A stretch of 25,816 nucleotides of DNA. Origin: a virus. The number at the start of each line of letters is the position of its first letter. The first letter of the stretch is position 1. Positions 7,096 to 18,523 of this stretch are shown here, piece by piece. The DNA lies in the IMG/VR virus record IMGVR_UViG_3300037332_000071, positions 1-25,816 of that record; one strand, 5' to 3'. Both the position numbers and the translations under genes were made by a program. A model generated the notes under the pieces. That model did no database searches. It saw nothing but the letters and a program-made list of their open reading frames with translations, and was not told the DNA's origin.

Positions 7096-7119
7096 AAAAA
7101 GGCCCTTCGGGGCTTTTTT
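7096..7119 (+). terminator. Intrinsic terminator after the capsid gene
   Basis: A TTCG tetraloop (7106-7109) is closed by CCC/GGG, G-C and G-U pairs, then five A-T pairs running into a six-base T tract (7114-7119). The stem plus T run makes a strong rho-independent terminator that separates the head block from the fibre genes. The A tract on the left means it could also act weakly on the opposite strand. Confidence 0.92.
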
Positions 7120-7124
7120 GTTGA

Positions 7125-7132
7125 CTTAAATA
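7125..7132 (+). promoter_or_regulatory. T4-type late promoter-like motif (CTTAAATA)
   Basis: It lies just after the terminator and ends four bases before the ATG at 7137. A terminator followed directly by a promoter is a sensible block boundary. By T4 geometry the late transcript would begin at about the start codon itself. Confidence 0.6.
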
Positions 7133-7136
7133 CCTG

Positions 7137-7406
7137 ATGCAAATAGAATCAGACAACGACTTTAAACAGATGCGTGAGCAGTTTAGTATATGGCGTAAAC
7201 GCTTTCCTATGTTTACTCACGATGTTAATCAGATAGAACATATGATTGAAAATCGCATAAAGCAACATAGTATTATTATGGTACAGCATAGACAAACTAA
7301 AAGTCGAGCCTATTTAGAAAAAGCACAAAAAGAAATAGACACTATTAATCAAATACTAAGCACAGTTGAAAAAATTGAGCTAATGGCAATGCTTAGTCGT
7401 GGATAA
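7137..7406 (+). CDS. Small helical protein, function unknown
   Basis: An 89-aa protein, predicted almost wholly helical and charged: MREQFSIWRKRFPMFTHDV near the start, then a long helix with IENRIKQHSIIMVQHRQTKSRAYLEKAQKEI in two pieces and a C-terminal leucine-containing helix. There is no signal peptide or membrane segment. I do not recognise the family. It sits alone between the capsid-gene terminator and the fibre-protein block, with its own late-promoter-like element four bases upstream and no Shine-Dalgarno. A leaderless late transcript would fit. An internal ATG at codon 12 (7170) is the only early alternative and also lacks a ribosome-binding site. The stop codon overlaps the next promoter-like motif. 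A small structural or assembly protein is a guess from context only. Confidence 0.75.
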   Translation: MQIESDNDFKQMREQFSIWRKRFPMFTHDVNQIEHMIENRIKQHSIIMVQHRQTKSRAYLEKAQKEIDTINQILSTVEKIELMAMLSRG

Positions 7407-7409
7407 ATA
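7402..7409 (+). promoter_or_regulatory. T4-type late promoter-like motif (GATAAATA)
   Basis: Seven of eight positions match TATAAATA. It overlaps the stop codon of the preceding gene and lies 68 bases upstream of the next ATG, leaving a leader of roughly 60 bases with a hairpin and a strong AAGGAG site. It would drive the block from 7478 to 9893. Confidence 0.6.
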
Positions 7410-7423
7410 AAGAGTCAAGAAGA

Positions 7424-7448
7424 TTTATGCAGAATCCCTCTGCGTAGA
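7424..7448 (+). promoter_or_regulatory. Leader hairpin upstream of the 7478 gene
   Basis: A 10-bp stem (7424-7433 with 7439-7448, including G-U pairs) with GCAGA/TCTGC next to an ATCCC loop. No T run follows, so it is not an ordinary terminator. It lies between the late-promoter-like motif and the ribosome-binding site at about 7466-7471 and leaves that site free; mRNA stabilisation is one possible role. Confidence 0.5.
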
Positions 7449-7477
7449 CCTAAAACGTCATATTAAGGAGAAATCAA

Positions 7478-7885
7478 ATGGGACGTCCATTAAGAAAAGA
7501 TGCACTGGGAACCGATGCTATCGGAACTCCACTATCAGCGGCGACAGGTATTCGTGTTGAAGCATACTTCGGTGCTGCTGCATACACTGATGACACATAT
7601 AATATCACAACTAACTATGCTTATATTTCTAAGCAACGTGGTGCAAAAACTTTCGTAGTAGCCAATCAAGCTGGTGCTAAAGCAACTTGTGTATTACAAG
7701 CAACTATCCCTAATAGCAATAACGAGATGAGAATTAACGGTTACCTCGACGGTAACGGATCAACCCCGACTCCTATTGCTAAAATCACCAAGCGTCTTGC
7801 TACTGATTTTAGCGGCGTTAAGTACAATTGGTACTTAGAAAATGACTCATCAGCAGACTACATTGTACTAACAGCAATCGTTTAA
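7478..7885 (+). CDS. Small beta-rich virion protein
   Basis: A 135-aa protein starting MGRPLRKDALGTDAIG. A middle segment YAYISKQRGAKTFVVAN and a C-terminal segment SGVKYNWYLENDSSADYIVL follow. From memory, proteins beginning M-G/A-RPL-K with an 'I-KQ-G-K-F-V' segment recur as unnamed structural proteins in T4-like marine phages; I cannot confirm this by search. Composition is rich in Thr, Ala, Asn and Ser with alternating hydrophobics, typical of an all-beta virion protein. There are no cysteine pairs, signal peptide or catalytic motif. The start is well supported by AAGGAG nine bases upstream. It is the first gene of a run of small structural genes leading to the giant fibres, so a role in tail-fibre attachment or decoration is likely but unproven. 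Confidence 0.8.
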   Translation: MGRPLRKDALGTDAIGTPLSAATGIRVEAYFGAAAYTDDTYNITTNYAYISKQRGAKTFVVANQAGAKATCVLQATIPNSNNEMRINGYLDGNGSTPTPIAKITKRLATDFSGVKYNWYLENDSSADYIVLTAIV

Positions 7886-9380: not shown

Positions 9381-9893
9381 ATGAAATTTCTAAAACAAAA
9401 AAATATTTCAAAGTTTAGTATTAGAGACCAAACTCTATTCACTAATCAATTTGGTCGTGCAGTAATGGGACTAACTGGTGGGTTAAGATTGCCACAGGGA
9501 ACAACTGCACAACGTCCTAACGAAACACTCGTACGTTATCCAGGCGGCATTAGTGGCGCTGAATTTGCCGACGGTACAATTCGTTACAACTTAGACACTA
9601 ACAGCTTAGAAGCTCTTATTGCAGGAGTATGGGAAATTGTACGAGGTCCGGGTGCAACTGCAATTACTAAAGAAACATTAGGCCCTGGCAACGATGTCGA
9701 AACTACTTATACTCTTAACCCACCATTTGGTATAGCACCATCTAGTGCAGATAATCTTATTGTTCTAGTAGAAAACGTTATGCAAATTTCTGTTACTAAC
9801 TATAACTTGATCAACGGCAACACTGAAATCGAATTTACCAGTGCTATCCCGGGCGGCAAGTACGTTACAGTCTATTACGGCTTTGCTAACTAA
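9381..9893 (+). CDS. Fibre-associated virion protein with C-terminal beta domain
   Basis: A 170-aa protein whose ATG is one base after the previous stop (TAATATG), so translation is probably coupled. It contains GGLRLPQGTTAQRP followed by GTIRYNLDTNSLEALIAGVWE (residues ~33-88, in pieces). This is the 'LPxGTTAQRP...G-x-IRYNxxTxxLE-x-GxW' cassette found in many phage fibre and collar proteins. The C-terminal part (~110-170) has the 'NLIVLVENVMQ...YNLINGNTEIEF' pattern of a small beta-sandwich recurrent in fibre tips ('NxxVxVDGVxQxPxxYxxxGxxIxF'). The N-terminus is basic. The same QRP cassette occurs near the C-termini of the products at 9935 and 11163, linking them into one structural module. 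Confidence 0.85.
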   Translation: MKFLKQKNISKFSIRDQTLFTNQFGRAVMGLTGGLRLPQGTTAQRPNETLVRYPGGISGAEFADGTIRYNLDTNSLEALIAGVWEIVRGPGATAITKETLGPGNDVETTYTLNPPFGIAPSSADNLIVLVENVMQISVTNYNLINGNTEIEFTSAIPGGKYVTVYYGFAN

Positions 9894-9903
9894 CTAGATT
9901 TAG

Positions 9904-9911
9904 AGTAAATA
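9904..9911 (+). promoter_or_regulatory. T4-type late promoter-like motif (AGTAAATA)
   Basis: It lies in the 41-base gap before the 9935 gene, 24 bases upstream of its ATG. By T4 geometry the transcript would start near 9917-9918, inside the left arm of the hairpin that immediately follows. Confidence 0.55.
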
Positions 9912-9934
9912 TACATATCGAACGGAGATATGTA
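9912..9934 (+). promoter_or_regulatory. Perfect 8-bp hairpin enclosing the ribosome-binding site
   Basis: TACATATC (9912-9919) pairs with GATATGTA (9927-9934); the loop is GAACGGA. The Shine-Dalgarno core GGAG (9924-9927) lies in the loop and first pair, and the ATG at 9935 follows the stem directly. This could restrict translation from read-through transcripts while a late transcript starting within the left arm would escape. Confidence 0.6.
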
Positions 9935-11041
9935 ATGCCAGAATCTTATGCAGCCAGTTTAGGTAGAATTAGCGGTAAGCTACTTACTGAAAACCTTCTA
10001 CGCAACGGTAGCGATCTAACCTTTAGAAACGCTCCTACTGACGACGACTTATTATATCTTGACGTTAATAACCTGCGTATCGGTATTAATACTGATGCAC
10101 CGTTATACGATCTACAGATTGATACTGATGTTAAAACTACAGTTTTAAATGTTACAGGTCAAGCACGTATTGATAATATCTTAATCAATGCAGCCGGCTC
10201 GTTTGGATCATACACTGGTCCTATTATTATTTCTACAGCAATACCTAATTCAGTTATCTTAATGGGTAAGCTAAAAAGCGATTATTTAGAAATATATAAT
10301 GGTCGAATCGATAGCATCGCTAATTCTAATATTAAATTAGACCCTAATGGCACTGGTCAAGTTGTAGCTGAATCAAATGTACAAACTTATGGTAATGTCA
10401 CAGTACAAGGAACCGGTACTGGTAATATTGTTATGGGAGGCAATTTACAAGCCGACGGCACTATTACAGTTGGTGACAACATATTAGATACTGTAACAGT
10501 TAACACTGATTTTACACAGAGCATTATTCCGGGAACTGATATTACTTATGATCTAGGTAAGAGCAATAAACGTTGGTCCGAACTTCGTTCTCCCGTCTGG
10601 CAACAGATAGATACTATACGACCAACTAACGTTATAGTTAGCGACCAGCTATTTATTAACGGAGTTGACAATAAGATTAGCGGTTTGCAATCTAATGAAG
10701 ATGTACTACTAAACCCAGAGACTGGCGTTGTTTATATTGAAAACATTAAATGGCAAGAAAATGACATTACTAACTTGCTTAATACTGCATTAACATTTAG
10801 AAATAATGGAGGTATTGGATATGTAAAATTTGTTGGTACAAATGCGTTAGCAATCCCAGCAGGTGATAATGCTAGTCGCCCAGCTGTTCCTGAATTAGGC
10901 GATACTCGATGGAATACTGAGATAAGCTACCTAGAGTGTTTTGACGGTAATGTATATGTTATTGCTACTGGCGGTGGTGAAGAAGTTACTCAAGGTGTTA
11001 TGGAAGATTTAGGTAACGTTTTTAGCCTCATACTTGGCTAA
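9935..11041 (+). CDS. Fibre-like structural protein, paralog of the 11163-12215 product
   Basis: A 368-aa protein. The N-terminal LGRISGKLLTENLLRNGSDL and LLYLDVNNLRIGINTDAP match the start of the protein at 11163 (GRISGPLLKANLIRDGVDL, LLYLDVTNSRIGVN). The 'RIGI-xxxAP-xDLxxxxxxxT' unit is a common N-terminal fibre/adhesin motif. A middle beta-repeat region has 'GNVTVQGTGTGNIVMGGNL'-type strands, then PGTDITYDLGKSNKRWSEL (residues ~198-216), the 'TDxxYDLGxxxxRWxxLY' marker seen in phage fibres. Near the end is AIPAGDNASRPAVPELGDTRWN, the QRP-type cassette, and the protein closes with DLGNVFSLILG. No S74 chaperone peptidase follows the RW motif, so any trimerisation is by other means. It has its own promoter-like site and an RBS hairpin. 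Probably a trimeric short fibre or connector. Confidence 0.88.
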   Translation: MPESYAASLGRISGKLLTENLLRNGSDLTFRNAPTDDDLLYLDVNNLRIGINTDAPLYDLQIDTDVKTTVLNVTGQARIDNILINAAGSFGSYTGPIIISTAIPNSVILMGKLKSDYLEIYNGRIDSIANSNIKLDPNGTGQVVAESNVQTYGNVTVQGTGTGNIVMGGNLQADGTITVGDNILDTVTVNTDFTQSIIPGTDITYDLGKSNKRWSELRSPVWQQIDTIRPTNVIVSDQLFINGVDNKISGLQSNEDVLLNPETGVVYIENIKWQENDITNLLNTALTFRNNGGIGYVKFVGTNALAIPAGDNASRPAVPELGDTRWNTEISYLECFDGNVYVIATGGGEEVTQGVMEDLGNVFSLILG

Positions 11042-11053
11042 AATGTCCTTTGG

Positions 11054-11061
11054 GCTAAATA
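11054..11061 (+). promoter_or_regulatory. T4-type late promoter-like motif (GCTAAATA)
   Basis: It lies 12 bases after the stop of the preceding gene and is followed by an unusually long leader of about 100 bases. It would drive the compact run 11163-18523, whose genes are separated by only 7-12 bases. Confidence 0.55.
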
Positions 11062-11162
11062 CTATTACTGTAAAGACTGACCAAGTTTTTACGATACTCA
11101 ACAGCGCAGGACCGCTATGTAAGGTGTCCGTATCCGTGTAAGTCGGTGGAAATGGAGAGCAC
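11062..11162 (+). other. Long leader of the 11163 gene
   Basis: About 100 bases with no gene, the longest untranslated stretch in the window. It looks more GC-rich than its surroundings. GGAC (11109-11112) can pair with GTCC (about 11126-11129), and GTAAA with TTTAC further up, but neither stem is long. A GGAGAG ribosome-binding site sits just before the ATG. A structured leader or small RNA is possible; no known class is recognised. Confidence 0.35.
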
Positions 11163-12215
11163 ATGGCTATTGGTCGAATTAGTGGTCCGCTCTTAAAGGC
11201 TAACCTCATCAGAGATGGTGTGGATCTTGCTTTTGAGACTGACCTGTTATACCTAGATGTTACTAACTCACGCATAGGCGTGAATAACTCCAATCCGACC
11301 ACAGACCTAGATGTTATCGGTACAACCCGTACTACAACACTTTCTGTAACCGACCAACTAGATGTAGGCAATTTACATATCACTGGCAATACAATTTCCA
11401 GTGATATCGATACTATTAGTTTTGTTGCCAGCGCAGGGAATCCTGTAATCTACAACGCAATTTTACAAGTTGATGATATACAGATTACTGGTAATGTAAT
11501 ATCTACTTTTGTTTCAAACAGTAATTTAGAACTTCAACCTAATGGGTCTGGCATTGTTGAAATTACTGGTAACACTCAAATCACTGGTAATTTAGATGTT
11601 GCTGGAAATATTTCAGCAACAGGTAACGTTACTATTGGCGGCAACATTGTAATTGGTGATGCACTAACTGATAACATTGTTATTAACGCTGCTATTAAAA
11701 GTGATTTAATTCCCGAAACTGACACGCTATATGATTTAGGTAGCGCCTCTTTTAGATGGAATAATTTATACGTTAACAATTTCTACACAACTTCAGTTAC
11801 ATTACCTACACTAGATGTTGGTAATTTAATATTTCGTGATAATGAAATTACAACAACTTCCGGCAGCGATTTATACATAGATGGAAGTGGCGTCGGCGGC
11901 GTTAGATTAGGTAATTTTAGAATTGTTGACAACGTTATTACAAACGTATCAAATAATGCAATTACTCAAATTGCGCAAACCGGAACCGGCTATTTTAAAA
12001 TAGCAACCACTAACGGATTTGTACCACCTGTAGGCAATGATGCTCAACGTCCAACTGCTTATGCAATAGCTGGTATGACACGGTATAACACGAACTCGAA
12101 AGCTCTTGAAATTTGGGACGGATTTGCATGGGCTAGCCCAGCAGGCGCATCAGGTGCAGTTAGCGGTATCCAAGCAGAAGATATTGCAGTTTCGTTCGCA
12201 CTAACATTAGGATAA
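11163..12215 (+). CDS. Fibre-like structural protein, paralog of the 9935-11041 product
   Basis: A 350-aa protein with the same order of parts as its paralog. The N-terminus is GRISGPLLKANLIRDGVDL, followed by LLYLDVTNSRIGVNNSNP and 'TTDLDVIGTTRTTTLSV'. A stretch of short beta repeats follows (ITGNTQITGNLDVAGNISAT and similar, residues ~125-165). IPETDTLYDLGSASFRWNNL comes at about residues 183-202, and FVPPVGNDAQRP with MTRYNTNSKALEIWDGFAW near the C-terminus. It ends AEDIAVSFALTLG, echoing DLGNVFSLILG in the paralog. The regular ITGN/GNI repeats suggest a slender triple-beta-helix shaft. There is no S74 peptidase domain. It is the first gene after the 11054 promoter-like site and its long leader. 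Tandem duplication with divergence is the simplest origin of the pair. Confidence 0.88.
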   Translation: MAIGRISGPLLKANLIRDGVDLAFETDLLYLDVTNSRIGVNNSNPTTDLDVIGTTRTTTLSVTDQLDVGNLHITGNTISSDIDTISFVASAGNPVIYNAILQVDDIQITGNVISTFVSNSNLELQPNGSGIVEITGNTQITGNLDVAGNISATGNVTIGGNIVIGDALTDNIVINAAIKSDLIPETDTLYDLGSASFRWNNLYVNNFYTTSVTLPTLDVGNLIFRDNEITTTSGSDLYIDGSGVGGVRLGNFRIVDNVITNVSNNAITQIAQTGTGYFKIATTNGFVPPVGNDAQRPTAYAIAGMTRYNTNSKALEIWDGFAWASPAGASGAVSGIQAEDIAVSFALTLG

Positions 12216-12943: not shown

Positions 12944-14143
12944 ATGGCAGAATTTAAGATCAGTAGATTACGATATACCTGGAAAGGAACATGGGTTCTT
13001 TCAACTGAGTATAATAGAGATGATGTAGTACAATACGGTGGTTATTCTTGGGTATGTTTTAGACAACATACTGCCGGGGCATTTGCTGCTGACCAAACAT
13101 TTTTAGCAAATCCTAACGATACAGATCCAACACCAGCATGGCGCAAAATGACCGACGGTTATGCGTGGCGTTCAGCTTGGACAGGATCTACGTTATATAA
13201 CCCCGGCGACATCGTATTAAACGGTGGTAACTTATATCTGTGTGCAGTTAGCTATACCTCAACTAGTATATTTGATGACGATATTAGTAATTGGATTGTG
13301 TACACTGAGGGTTCAGCATTTAAATCAGATTGGATTGATAGTACACGGTATGGTGCAGGCGATGTTGTAAAATACAATGGTATTGTGTATCGTGCTATTA
13401 CTGGACATACTGCAAGCTCAATTAGCGACGGATTAGAAGCAGATCAAGAAAAGTGGGAACTTGTTTACGACGGCGTAGAATATGTAGGACAGTGGGCAAA
13501 TGGCACTCGATATCGTAAAAATGATCTAACAACATTTGGTGGAACATTATTCCGTTGTAAGAAAGGACATACTGCTGGCAGCGACTCAACTTTAAACTTT
13601 AATCAAGAAGAAAATTGGGAAATTGAATTTCCAGGATTTCAGTTTAGTAACGAGTGGAACACTACTACGGTATATCAAGTCGGTGACTTGGTTAAACATG
13701 GTGGGTACTTATTTTATAGTTTAACTAATAATTACGGTAGCAATCCAAGTAACAGCATCTATCAATTAGAAGATAGAGTTGATGCAATAGATTGGCAAAT
13801 TGCAGCTAAGAATATTAATTTTAGAGGCGACTGGAGCGTTACTGGATTATATAAAACAGGCGACCTAGTCCGCCGAGGCGGAAACACTTATAGTGCATTA
13901 CTAGATACAACAGCCGACGGCAGTAGTCTAGATTATCTAGACGATACAAACTGGGAACTTATTACTGTTGGCCAAAACTGGCGTAATTTTTGGGCTGACG
14001 GCAATCGCTATTCTCCTAACGATCTAGTAATTTTTCTAGGAAGCACATATAAATCGATAACTGAGCATGTGTCAACGGATCAGAATTATCCTGGAGATAA
14101 CGGCTCAGGATATTTCTACTGGGAGTTAGTACTATTAGCTGGT
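12944..14143 (+). repeat. Seven tandem W/Y/GDxV carbohydrate-binding-like repeats (giant protein 1)
   Basis: Repeats of about 50-70 residues each follow the pattern W-x(3-4)-T/R-x-Y-x(3)-D-hydrophobic-V-x(2)-G-x-Y-x-C/A-x(4)-T, ending with a Trp and a Gly-containing joint. Examples are WTGSTLYNPGDIVLNGG, WIDSTRYGAGDVVKYNG and WSVTGLYKTGDLVRRGG. The aromatic-plus-GDxV pattern is like chitin-binding type-3/CBM5/12 modules; sugar binding is inferred. Confidence 0.75.
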
Positions 14144-17100
14144 TCTGAATCAGGTCTTAGTATTCGAGGAGATTTATTAACTTATGATCTTAGTCGTGGC
14201 GCAGCAGGCGACGGCAGTACATTTGGCGCAGCAGCAGTTAATATTGGAACTCCTGGACAGGTAGTTGCTATTAACAATACAGATAGTGTTATCTATAAAA
14301 CCTTGGTCCAAGCTAACAGAGTTGTTTACGTAGATATCAATGGCACTGATGATACCTCTGATCCACAACAAGGAAACAGTCAATTTAAACCATGGCGCAC
14401 AATTAGATTTGCCTGTGATCAACTAGACGACGGATTTGCCGGAACATCTACAGTAAAAGTTGGCGCTGGCACATACGATGAAATTTTGCCAATAAGTGTC
14501 CCTGCAAGAACAGTGGTGTTAGGCTCAGAGTTAAGAACTACTGTGATAAATGCCGCTGGACCGATTGCATCATTGGCATTAGATAGTGCTTACACTATTG
14601 CAGTGTTAACTAGAATTTCACAAGTAATTGAAGGAGTAATTGGAGGTACAGAATTAATACCGCCAAAAACTGTTGGAAATTTAAAAGATCAAGTAATATT
14701 AACTGAAACAGTTTCAGAAACAGTTATAGATGAGTATGGTATTTCTACAACATCAACTTCTACAGGGGTGGTAGTAGCTGATCAACAAGCCGCAACTGAT
14801 ATTCAACTATTAATTTTAGATATTAAAAATTATATTAATTTTTATGTTAATTCAACTGGAATTGATCCGATATTAGGCGGTAGTAACGTTGCGATTACAT
14901 CAGCTGGATACGTAAATGCTGTGCGTATTCTCGAAGCTAACAGACAGTTCATAATTGCTGAAGCTGTTGCATTTATTGAATTTACTCACCCAGACTACAA
15001 TTTTGATAGCGAGCTAGTTAAAGCAGACTTAAGTAGATACATTGATGCATGGAAGTATGACATTATCTATACTGGTAATTATAAATCAAAATTAGCAGCA
15101 AGATGCTATCGTAATTCGGTATTAGGCTCAGCAACTGAAGATATGTTTTACTGCCGCGATACTACTGGAGTTAGAAACTGTACATTAACAGGGTTAGCTG
15201 GAGTCTTAAATCCGTTAGGAGTGGCTGATATCTTTAGAGTGCCCACTGCTGGAGCATATATATCATTAGATCCAGGCTGGGGTCCAGCTGATAATCGTAC
15301 TTGGATTATTAATCGTTCTCCTTATATTCAAGGAGTTACTACATTTGGTACTGGATGTACTGGGCAAAAGATCGACGGTAACTTACATAATGGCGGAAAT
15401 AGATCTATTGTATCTAACGACTTTACACAAGTAATCAGTGATGGTATTGGTGCATGGGTTACGAATAATGGTAGAGCAGAGCTTGTATCTGTTTTCTCGT
15501 ATTATGCACACATTGGCTACTTAACTCAAAACGGCGGAATTATTCGTGCAACTAACGGTAACAGTTCATACGGTACGTTTGGAGCCATTGCATCTGGAGT
15601 TGACCTAACAGAAGTACCTGTAGCAGCAGCAGTTGGTACTAGAGCCAACGAGGCAATTATATCATCGGCGTTTGCCGGCGACTTCGTTGATGAGATTCAA
15701 ATATTTGAGTGGACTAATGCTGGACAAGATTATACACAAGCAACTGCTACCTTTGTAGGAGCTGGAGTAGACGCTGAAGTATTATTTGAAGAATTTAGAG
15801 ATGACGCAGTGTTTGAAGCACGTCGTTTAGATGTCAGTGAGACTATCACACAGGATATCGGCGGCGGCGGCTACATCATTGTTCAGAACAACGCACAAAC
15901 AGGAAACGCAACAACTATCACTCTAGCAACTAATGATCCAAACGCACAATCTAATTATCTAGGCATGAGAATTGTGTTAACTAGCGGACCAGGTACTGGA
16001 CAATATGGTTACGTAAACGCTTACAATAATACAAGTAAAGTTCTCACAGTTTATAGAGAAAGTGACGATCAGCCCGGCTGGGATCATGTTGTTCCGGGAA
16101 AGCCAGCAACTATACCGTTAACTACTGGAACTACATATCGAATAGAGCCAAGAATTATCTTTGCAGCTCCTCAGTACATTGCTGCTGAAGTTACTACTCC
16201 TGTTAGTACTACTTGGACTGATATTGCCTACGGTGAAACTACTGAAACATATACAGAGTTAACAGCCGGTACAGGCACTGGCAGTGTCGATGGTCGTGAT
16301 GGCCTAGTAGTAACTGCCGCAACTTTTACTATTACTAAAATTGGAAGAGATTACACTGTTGATATTGCAACGGCAGGTTCAGGGTACCTTGTTGGCGACC
16401 AGTTAATAATTACTGGAGAAAAAATCGGCGGAGAAACTCCATTAAACGATTTGTTACTTGTAGTAACTTCTACTAGTGATGACAGCACTAACTCAATTTT
16501 AGCTATTGATCAGAGAACATTCGGAGCAGGAAACGGCATCGAAGCATCAAGCGGTAAATTTGTTGTTATCTCGTCAGGCGGAACAGCAGGCCTTTATAGC
16601 GGCGACGGAGACACATGGGAATCATTTACTTTACCTACTGCGGGAGACTGGAAATGTACAGCCGCAGGCGATAACAAATTTGTAGCCATCCGTACAGGAA
16701 GTAATGCCGCAGCTAGTTCATTGGACGGAATAACATGGACTGCTAGAACGATGCCAGCAAGTAGGCTTTGGAACTCAGTTGTTTACGGTAACGGTATATT
16801 TGTTGCAGTTGCTGGTGATTTAGATGCAGGAGCTATTAGTACTAACGGAACTACTTGGACATCAACTAATTTACCAGAATTTGGCGACTCAAGTTTTAGC
16901 GAATGGGTTGACATAGCCTACGGCGCAAGAAAATTTGTAGCATTGTCAAATAGTGGAAACTATGTTGGAATTGGAGTATATAACAGTGAAGACGGTATTA
17001 TTACATGGACTCCTCGCACAATGGATGTTATTGCTGACTCATCTAACAAGTCTTGGCAAAGTATTGCATATGGCAATAATAGATTTGTGGCAATATCATC

Positions 17101-18523
17101 TACTGGTGACGTCGGATACAGCTTTGATGGAGTAGAATGGTATCCAGGAACGATGCCAAGTCAGGACGGATCAACTTCACACAATTGGAAGAAAATTAGA
17201 TACGCCCAAGGCGTATTCTTTGCTATTGGCGATACTGGAGCACGATTAGTCGGCGCTGATACTACTGCAGGACCTACAACTTTCGCAGCAACATCATTCG
17301 ACGGCATAGTTTGGACTAACAGAGAATTAGCATCAGAGCAATCATGGGAAGCAGTTGGCTTTGGAAATCCTTACATTGCGTCAAGAGACTCGTCTATAGG
17401 AAAACGTTCACCAATGTGGGTAGTAGTTCCTGCGGCTACTGATAAATTTAACAAAGTGTTAACAGGAGCTAGAGCGTTAGGAAGAGCAACTGTTGTAGCA
17501 GGTAAAATATCAGAGATTAGATTATGGGATCCGGGATCAGGCTATCTTGATGGTCCTGCGATTACGCTAATTGATCCAAATAATACATCTGATGTGCTAC
17601 TTGAAAGTAGAGTCGGAGACGGAGTATTACCTAATCCAACATGGATTAACCGAGGGTTGGGATATCGTACTAATTCTACTAAAATTACAATAGCTGGAAA
17701 TGGATTCGCTGACATTATTCCGTCCGGTAAATTTATTGTTATAAACGAGTTGGAAAATTATCCAGGACCTGGCGCACAGCTAACTATTGCTGGTCTCGAG
17801 GGTATTTTCACATTAGTTGCAATTACACCAATTGGGCAAACTGATCAAGGACTTGCTGCAAGGATTCGAATTAGTCCGGAAATTACAGTTAGAGATAACC
17901 TACAACACAAGACTCAGGTATCCATTAGATCACGATATAGCCAATGTCGAATTACTGGACACGACTTTTTAGACGTCGGAACTGGCAATTTTCAAGAAAC
18001 TAATTACCCACTATTATATTCAGGATTTTATACACCTTCTCCAGAAAACGAAATTGTTGAAACAGGCGGTGGCCGCGTATTCTATACAAGTACTGATCAA
18101 TCAGGTAATTTTAGAACAGGCGAATTATTTGCTGTAGAACAGGCAACTGGTACTGTTACAATTAGTGCAGACTTCTTTGACTTTAGCGGATTGACAGAAT
18201 TGACCTTGGGTGGTATTAGAGTAGGAGGTACTGGAGCAGTAGTTAGGGAATTTTCAACAGATCCGTTATTTACTGCAGATTCTAATAATGTAGTTCCTAC
18301 ACAACGAGCAATTCGTGCGTACTTGGCAGGAAGATTAAGTATTGGTGGATCAGAAATTGCAGTGGGAAGTTTTATTGCAGGTACAGTACTAGTAGGTCCA
18401 GATAAAATGGGAAATACTGCTGGGTCAAAAATAATCTTTCCTAAACTCGCAAAATTTGAAGGCGAGTTTGCAGGCGTCAGCGGCAGTATACTAGCACAAA
18501 CTATGTTTTATAAATCATTCTAA
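12944..18523 (+). CDS. Giant multi-domain fibre/adhesin protein 1
   Basis: A complete 1859-aa protein, probably a tail fibre or spike for host-surface polysaccharide. Residues 1-400 are seven W/Y/GDxV repeats resembling CBM5/12 carbohydrate-binding modules. RGDLLTYD starts a linker (~406). VVYVDINGTDD with KPWRTIRFA (~460-485) is the usual entry to a parallel beta-helix, continued by VPARTVVLGSELRT. One helical module follows (656-728), then more beta-helix with GQKIDG to SYGTFG (807-880), almost identical to the second giant protein. A beta region 'GTGQYGYVNAYN...GWDHVVPG...YRIEPR' (~970-1080), a GSGYLVGD module (~1150), a propeller-like region (1203-1481), another GSGY unit, then GGGRVFYTSTDQSGNFRTGE and VPTQRAIRAYLAGRL near the end. 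No hydrolase motif or S74 chaperone is recognised. It starts 12 bases after the previous gene with a weak GGAAT site. Confidence 0.93.
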   Translation: MAEFKISRLRYTWKGTWVLSTEYNRDDVVQYGGYSWVCFRQHTAGAFAADQTFLANPNDTDPTPAWRKMTDGYAWRSAWTGSTLYNPGDIVLNGGNLYLCAVSYTSTSIFDDDISNWIVYTEGSAFKSDWIDSTRYGAGDVVKYNGIVYRAITGHTASSISDGLEADQEKWELVYDGVEYVGQWANGTRYRKNDLTTFGGTLFRCKKGHTAGSDSTLNFNQEENWEIEFPGFQFSNEWNTTTVYQVGDLVKHGGYLFYSLTNNYGSNPSNSIYQLEDRVDAIDWQIAAKNINFRGDWSVTGLYKTGDLVRRGGNTYSALLDTTADGSSLDYLDDTNWELITVGQNWRNFWADGNRYSPNDLVIFLGSTYKSITEHVSTDQNYPGDNGSGYFYWELVLLAGSESGLSIRGDLLTYDLSRGAAGDGSTFGAAAVNIGTPGQVVAINNTDSVIYKTLVQANRVVYVDINGTDDTSDPQQGNSQFKPWRTIRFACDQLDDGFAGTSTVKVGAGTYDEILPISVPARTVVLGSELRTTVINAAGPIASLALDSAYTIAVLTRISQVIEGVIGGTELIPPKTVGNLKDQVILTETVSETVIDEYGISTTSTSTGVVVADQQAATDIQLLILDIKNYINFYVNSTGIDPILGGSNVAITSAGYVNAVRILEANRQFIIAEAVAFIEFTHPDYNFDSELVKADLSRYIDAWKYDIIYTGNYKSKLAARCYRNSVLGSATEDMFYCRDTTGVRNCTLTGLAGVLNPLGVADIFRVPTAGAYISLDPGWGPADNRTWIINRSPYIQGVTTFGTGCTGQKIDGNLHNGGNRSIVSNDFTQVISDGIGAWVTNNGRAELVSVFSYYAHIGYLTQNGGIIRATNGNSSYGTFGAIASGVDLTEVPVAAAVGTRANEAIISSAFAGDFVDEIQIFEWTNAGQDYTQATATFVGAGVDAEVLFEEFRDDAVFEARRLDVSETITQDIGGGGYIIVQNNAQTGNATTITLATNDPNAQSNYLGMRIVLTSGPGTGQYGYVNAYNNTSKVLTVYRESDDQPGWDHVVPGKPATIPLTTGTTYRIEPRIIFAAPQYIAAEVTTPVSTTWTDIAYGETTETYTELTAGTGTGSVDGRDGLVVTAATFTITKIGRDYTVDIATAGSGYLVGDQLIITGEKIGGETPLNDLLLVVTSTSDDSTNSILAIDQRTFGAGNGIEASSGKFVVISSGGTAGLYSGDGDTWESFTLPTAGDWKCTAAGDNKFVAIRTGSNAAASSLDGITWTARTMPASRLWNSVVYGNGIFVAVAGDLDAGAISTNGTTWTSTNLPEFGDSSFSEWVDIAYGARKFVALSNSGNYVGIGVYNSEDGIITWTPRTMDVIADSSNKSWQSIAYGNNRFVAISSTGDVGYSFDGVEWYPGTMPSQDGSTSHNWKKIRYAQGVFFAIGDTGARLVGADTTAGPTTFAATSFDGIVWTNRELASEQSWEAVGFGNPYIASRDSSIGKRSPMWVVVPAATDKFNKVLTGARALGRATVVAGKISEIRLWDPGSGYLDGPAITLIDPNNTSDVLLESRVGDGVLPNPTWINRGLGYRTNSTKITIAGNGFADIIPSGKFIVINELENYPGPGAQLTIAGLEGIFTLVAITPIGQTDQGLAARIRISPEITVRDNLQHKTQVSIRSRYSQCRITGHDFLDVGTGNFQETNYPLLYSGFYTPSPENEIVETGGGRVFYTSTDQSGNFRTGELFAVEQATGTVTISADFFDFSGLTELTLGGIRVGGTGAVVREFSTDPLFTADSNNVVPTQRAIRAYLAGRLSIGGSEIAVGSFIAGTVLVGPDKMGNTAGSKIIFPKLAKFEGEFAGVSGSILAQTMFYKSF
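16550..17386 (+). repeat. Propeller-like repeats in giant protein 1 (about seven blades)
   Basis: Residues 1203-1481 repeat the unit 'W-x-x-I/V-x-Y/F-G-x-x-x-F-V-A-I/V ... S-x-D/N-G-x-x-W-T'. Examples are WNSVVYGNGIFVAVAG, WQSIAYGNNRFVAISS and SFDGVEWYPGTMP. Six complete units plus a closing half (WEAVGFGN) fit a seven-bladed beta-propeller with a velcro closure. The pattern is BNR-like, but no sialidase active-site residues were identified. Confidence 0.7.

Follow-up and report, generated by a model that had tools for sequence, protein, structure and literature searches.

A late-promoter hairpin before a virion-type gene of uncultured T4-like phages probably ties translation to the gene's own transcript

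The leader of a 368-aa gene in this 25.8-kb window (the window being the whole stretch of DNA that was analysed) probably acts as a start-site-gated translation switch, of the kind represented by T4 gene e, soc and I-TevI. It lies at 9904-9937 on the + strand, and its layout is exactly as the original prediction had described it. A late-type promoter box AGTAAATA (9904..9911, +), with the constrained core TAAATA at 9906-9911 and 2 bases off TATAAATA, is followed at once by the left arm TACATATC (9912..9919, +) of a perfect 8-bp inverted repeat, a 7-nt loop GAACGGA (9920..9926, +) and the right arm GATATGTA (9927..9934, +), which adjoins the ATG at 9935. The Shine-Dalgarno GGAG (9924-9927, +) has its GGA in the loop, and the right arm opens with its final G; this G and the spacer between the Shine-Dalgarno and the AUG are inside the stem. 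Downstream is the tail-fibre-like gene, of the type that we call GRISG_A (9935..11041, +), and the cassette stands directly 3' of a 170-aa gene (MKFLKQKN..., 9381..9893, +). Its exact pattern occurs a single time in the window and, being a dyad, can be read on both strands.

RNA entering from upstream would hold both arms and fold the hairpin, and with the spacer between Shine-Dalgarno and AUG caught in a helix, 30S ribosomes would bind such read-through RNA poorly. A gp55-type late polymerase at the adjacent box would start inside the left arm, at about 9917, and the resulting late RNA, unable to fold the hairpin, would be translated. A passage of PMC2988020 numbers the first base of the T4 late box as -13; applied to this box, that puts its last base at -6 and the predicted +1 at 9917 (+), in agreement with the late start near 9917 that had been foreseen. 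An RNA from 9917 retains three bases of the left arm, and in its computed fold the hairpin is not formed. The complete hairpin (9906-9937) folds at -8.1 kcal/mol and is present in both the minimum-energy and the centroid folds of 9880-9970. Freeing positions -14 to +3 at 37 C costs 10.3 kcal/mol on the read-through RNA versus 3.1 on the RNA from 9917 (15.9 versus 5.8 at 15 C); the same computation for T4 e gives 15.7 versus 1.2 kcal/mol at 37 C. Across the 16 distinct cassettes aligned below, the gap at 37 C ranges from 2.2 (L322) to 9.3 kcal/mol (L040), and it is weak in L322 and L328 (2.2-2.3 kcal/mol, with just 0.6 for L328 at 15 C). For thirteen other starts in the window the cost lies at 1.3-9.1 kcal/mol, the highest value belonging to the start at 11163, for which we claim no such switch. 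The location of much of the Shine-Dalgarno (GGA) in the loop counts against full masking by the stem. Since the hairpin begins 18 nt past the upstream stop codon, a terminating ribosome should not melt it.

The window encodes a T4-type portal protein (PF07230, 1.3e-104) and major capsid protein (PF07068, 3.2e-98), the latter with its best matches in phages such as Phosso (72.9%) and PA5oct (66.8%). A gp55-like late sigma factor is known from the records of relatives, the 25.8-kb window being too short to show it: it was found in six of the seven records searched (E 3.9e-7 to 1.2e-5), namely the two largest contigs that carry a homologue of the 368-aa protein (G001, 186 kb, and G002, 127 kb) and four of five others, and the record without it is a 44-kb fragment. 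The genes upstream of the cassette are themselves late-type structural genes (gp20-like and gp23-like) with TAAATA boxes of their own at 7127..7132 and 7404..7409 (both +), which are possible sources of read-through RNA. The terminator scan, which is not very sensitive, lists no + strand terminator between these boxes and the cassette. By eye, a terminator-like hairpin with a T run can be seen behind the capsid gene at about 7100-7121, with the late box at 7127 next to it; because the scan did not list this hairpin, its silence elsewhere is weak evidence. Read-through from the late-type boxes into the cassette is thus plausible, and since the upstream genes are late-type with their own boxes, the read-through RNA is probably in part late RNA. 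The original prediction held that the gene is silent on read-through messages and switched on by late transcription. It is safer to propose that translation is limited to RNA begun at the gene's own promoter; silence specifically in the early phase does not follow, since the upstream genes are late-type too, and we therefore read the switch as a restriction to the gene's own transcript of which early silence would form a part. Its likely use would be to set the dose of the product and make it independent of the upstream operon.

Homologues of the 368-aa protein itself are found in four contigs at 100% identity and in one at 96% (G001). For a wider view of this gene border, we searched with a profile of the upstream protein (9381-9893), so that the matches are independent of the leader, and kept the best 80 of 587 matches. 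With L321 left out of the count, as it ends before the next gene, the other 79 loci reduce to 38 combinations that differ in intergenic sequence, next protein or both. Among these combinations from the best 80 matches, 14 (with 13 distinct leaders) have the cassette of box, arms, GGAG and ATG, in the form TAAATA, [TC]AC[A/G]TATC, a loop ending in GGA, GATA[T/C]GT and ATG, within an intergenic region of 41-47 nt. The cassette is absent from the other 24: in 22 of them the intergenic region measures 0-18 nt and has no box, and two (L374 and L375) have a late box without such a hairpin. In eight of the 22 boxless combinations the next ATG comes 0-2 nt after the stop, which suggests translational coupling. 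The hairpin had been tied to a fibre gene, and within the group of the window it does stand before the tail-fibre-like gene, all three of the GRISG_A cases belonging to that group; in the remaining 11 of the 14 cassette combinations from the best 80 matches the next gene is of another type, with the start MALVxADRVKVR. As residues 1-99 of five MALV-type proteins have no match in G001, the lineage of the window seems, from these comparisons, to have lost the MALV-type gene and kept the leader. The idea that the hairpin is absent from homologues of the 368-aa gene at 48% identity was rejected: there it lies one gene upstream. Among 50,697 phage records, cultured relatives have no near DNA match to 9400-10600 and no protein match to the upstream gene or gene 11163, and the cassette pattern has no match in genome_contigs.

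When distinct leaders before MALV-type or window-type starts are considered, 17 of 18 have the cassette (the exception is L294), and TAAATA precedes the arms in 17 of the 18, the two bases ahead of it being variable. The repeat abuts the ATG or comes within about a base of it in every leader that has the cassette, and the loop, 7 nt in the window, measures 8-11 nt in the relatives. Identity among the 17 leaders is 0.92 and 0.93 in the two arms, as against 0.45 in the 15 bases ahead of the box and 0.46 in the last four loop bases before GGAG. Nor is the arm TACRTATC a general sequence behind late boxes: it follows exactly in only two of 90 box/start pairs of G001 and G003, both of which are the cassettes, and one further pair comes within two mismatches of it.

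An alignment of related phages had been suggested as a means of finding compensatory changes in the arms, and such changes are there. We aligned 16 distinct cassettes of the 17, omitting a near-copy from L005; standard pairs fill 99.2% of the pair cells. The fourth pair is G-C in 11 cassettes, A-U in five and mixed in none, and the outermost is U-A in 14, U-G in one and unpaired in one (L320). Because six of the eight pairs are invariant, the covariation comes from one pair. The number of paired cells, the number of double-change cells and the covariation score were each reached by one of 500 shuffles; two other measures did not rise above the shuffles, namely the count of pairs showing a double change (reached by 456 of 500 shuffles) and that of additional pair types (reached by all 500). 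Mapped onto a tree built from the upstream protein (18 rows, 7 A and 11 G), the fourth pair must have changed state at least four times, as supported branches require, although some rows have long branches and, with recombination, the leader itself could have undergone fewer events. Patterns that demand ATAT in both arms were excluded from the pairing evidence, and a scan that leaves the four outer pairs free gave 94 matches, 51 of them distinct. All four outer pairs are complementary in 21 of the 51 and three are in six; with the right arms re-dealt (2000 deals), the fully paired matches averaged 4.9 with a maximum of 13. Eighteen of the 21 belong to gene types of this locus, and L035, L489 and L516 are of other types; L489 and L516, going by a motif, may be GIY-YIG endonucleases. 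Non-complementary arms in relatives, which had been named as grounds for giving up the proposal, turned up only in L320, at the outermost pair, and in the MALV-type leader L495, at the second. The Rfam covariance models gave no match in 9850-11200 up to E 10. With their conserved arms, one compensating pair and variable loop length, the relatives' sequences support an RNA fold, and the proposed T4 lysozyme-style geometry is strengthened by the conservation of box and arms, by the compensating pair across distant relatives and by the gp55-like sigma in close ones.

Could the inverted repeat simply have arisen by chance near a ribosome site? The regional fold energy is ordinary: the 91-nt region 9880-9970 is no stabler than its shuffles (z -0.57, with 53 of 200 shuffles equal or better). 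Fold energy by itself is for that reason unconvincing, and the case is carried by placement and conservation. For placement, we took pairs of a TAAATA box and an ATG 8-54 nt later, with a purine-rich stretch before the ATG and an ORF of at least 40 codons. Two of 33 such pairs in G001 have a perfect 8-bp stem ending at most 4 nt from the ATG, against a mean of 0.027 and a maximum of 1 in 300 sets of shuffled stretches; in G003 the figures are two of 20 against 0.02. In each genome the two stems are those of this leader type and of the leader of a 94-aa gene, so that both genomes hold a second cassette of like build. The placement of the hairpin beside a late box is not chance. Box, arms and spacing are moreover conserved amid diverged flanks; the sequences of the relatives already contradict an accidental repeat, which we regard as very improbable.

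Other roles for a genuine hairpin would assign it to a protein or to the message upstream. It might be the site of an RNA-binding or RNA-cutting protein, either a nuclease resembling RegB or a repressor of the sort of gp43 or RegA in T4, that silences the transcripts carrying it; the invariant six pairs of the stem would then be that protein's mark. Yet outside GGA the loop is variable, the loop of the second cassette contains AGGAA instead of GGAG, and late transcripts resist RegB according to a passage of a published paper. The RegB profile PF10715 matched none of the seven records, in a search where the positive control was likewise silent. On balance we think a protein site of this sort unlikely. 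The dyad also directly adjoins the promoter box, as would a DNA operator bound by a dimeric repressor, and an operator overlapping the late promoter of I-TevI is described in a passage of PMC2988022, so that autorepression of that type has a precedent. A rigid dimer should, however, poorly tolerate an arm distance that varies from 7 to 11 nt; where one half-site changes, the other arm changes with it so that the base pair is kept, and the repeat keeps its place against the ATG. An operator therefore seems to us highly unlikely, and so does a function in RNA stability or 3'-end protection of the upstream messages without translational control. The latter would suit a hairpin at the end of the upstream transcription unit, but the hairpin keeps a constant distance from the late box and the ATG and not from the upstream stop, only the arrangement with the box at offset 0 is conserved, and no T run follows the hairpin. 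A start-site-gated translation switch is thus the reading that we prefer.

According to passages of PMC3014915, T4 e, soc, 49 and I-TevI have masked initiation sites, and the late promoter of e lies within the 5' strand of the helix, which leaves the late RNA without masking. Similarly, in a part of PMC2988022, the hairpins of I-TevI, I-TevII, I-TevIII, segB and mobE are said to form only on transcripts started upstream and never on late RNA, and the genes so regulated to be late genes that share their transcripts with early and middle ones. What marks the gene e type can be found here: a computed helix over the Shine-Dalgarno and start-codon region of the long RNA, a late promoter so positioned that RNA from its predicted start loses the 5' arm, the late sigma of the relatives noted above, and arms that are complementary in relatives apart from L320 and L495, with cassette-free relatives also in existence. 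By these sequence criteria the leader would be gene e-like, a kind already known from T4, and the computed energies run in the same direction as for T4 e. There are also differences, since T4 e has its Shine-Dalgarno inside the stem and two late boxes, whereas this leader has GGA in the loop and a single box just ahead of the left arm; the gene differs as well, and the RNA from upstream is late-type rather than early. The likeness to soc is that of a late virion gene with a masked initiation site, as described in the cited passages of PMC3014915 and PMC2988022. With I-TevI, segB and Aeh1 mobE, as PMC2988022 describes them, the leader would share a hairpin confined to upstream transcripts by the placing of a late promoter that excludes it, but those are homing endonuclease hairpins, and here we have a virion-type gene in the structural-gene region, at one conserved border, in uncultured phages. 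T4 genes 38 and 25 also have structure at the initiation region, but a passage of PMC3014915 describes their helix, between Shine-Dalgarno and AUG, as an aid to initiation; here the loop holds GGA. A limited literature check found no paper on this gene family.

As for the gene downstream, the label "fibre" given to the 368-aa product in the original prediction is weakly backed by profile matches, and the predicted structure (mean pLDDT 36.7) is unusable. Farther along, a 1859-codon ORF at 12944-18523 contains carbohydrate-binding modules (CBM_5_12, PF02839, 3.8e-31), and its product is possibly a glycan-binding fibre.

Two neighbouring leaders may also be recorded. Gene 11163 has a late box and then a leader of roughly 100 nt (11056-11162), conserved and structured in relatives. 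Among 55 leaders of this type, 41 have a first hairpin of at least six ungapped pairs, with 31 different stems and a conserved loop GACCA; with no Rfam match in the window or in seven relatives, it may be an RNA element that has yet to be described. Positions 7411-7480, flanked by the late box at 7404-7409 on one side and the start of gene 7478 on the other, resemble the Freshwater-2 RNA (RF02980) at 45.9 bits, for a gathering threshold of 49.9, and the relatives L244 and L288 reach 47 bits. Given its site behind the 7404-7409 box, Freshwater-2 RNA would be a late-transcript leader in T4-like phages.

The second cassette of late box and hairpin, at 30391-30427 of G001 (L298) and 58679-58716 of G003, stands before the 94-aa gene (MSRPKPK...), which itself follows an exonuclease-like gene (phrog_107); this cassette has the same build with other arms. 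In the best 80 loci it is represented by 22 distinct leaders, 14 of them with the full TATACGTG/CACGTATA arms and five with seven pairs; in L422 the stem ends farther from the ATG, and L425 and L426 (8 loci) are without a perfect stem. By eye, cultured homologues of the 94-aa gene (PA5oct, Phosso, Atu_ph07 and SCTP-2) have TAAATA within 90 nt and not these arms. TAAATA was also observed 4 or 5 nt before an ATG, at 2364-2377 and 7127-7139 of the window and likewise in G001 and G003. In the latter two genomes together, 22 of 224 boxes stand at this distance from the ATG of an ORF of at least 60 codons, compared with 45 of 7833 when the letters of the box are rearranged. With T4 numbering and a 5-nt gap (N5), +1 falls on the first base of the ATG, and leaderless late mRNAs are therefore possible from such boxes. 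The arrangement was not seen in a 49-kb piece of PA5oct, and our literature search, which took in part of PMC9004378, found no report of leaderless late mRNAs in T4-like phages. We offer only tentatively, as something that may well prove otherwise, the notion that translation tied to a gene's own late start is a genome-wide rule realised in at least two ways, by arm-removing hairpins (at this border and before the 94-aa gene) and by leaderless late mRNAs. If that were true, such genes would go largely untranslated from polycistronic late RNA, and each promoter would determine the dose of its own gene.

In the papers cited here, start-site-gated hairpins are described for a few genes of the T4 family (e, soc, 49 and the homing endonucleases), and the present leader would place one at a virion-gene border in many environmental phages. 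Its occurrence before different downstream genes, in a late-type region, argues for a use beyond early/late timing. The border also offers natural controls, in the form of relatives with the hairpin, with the promoter only and with neither.
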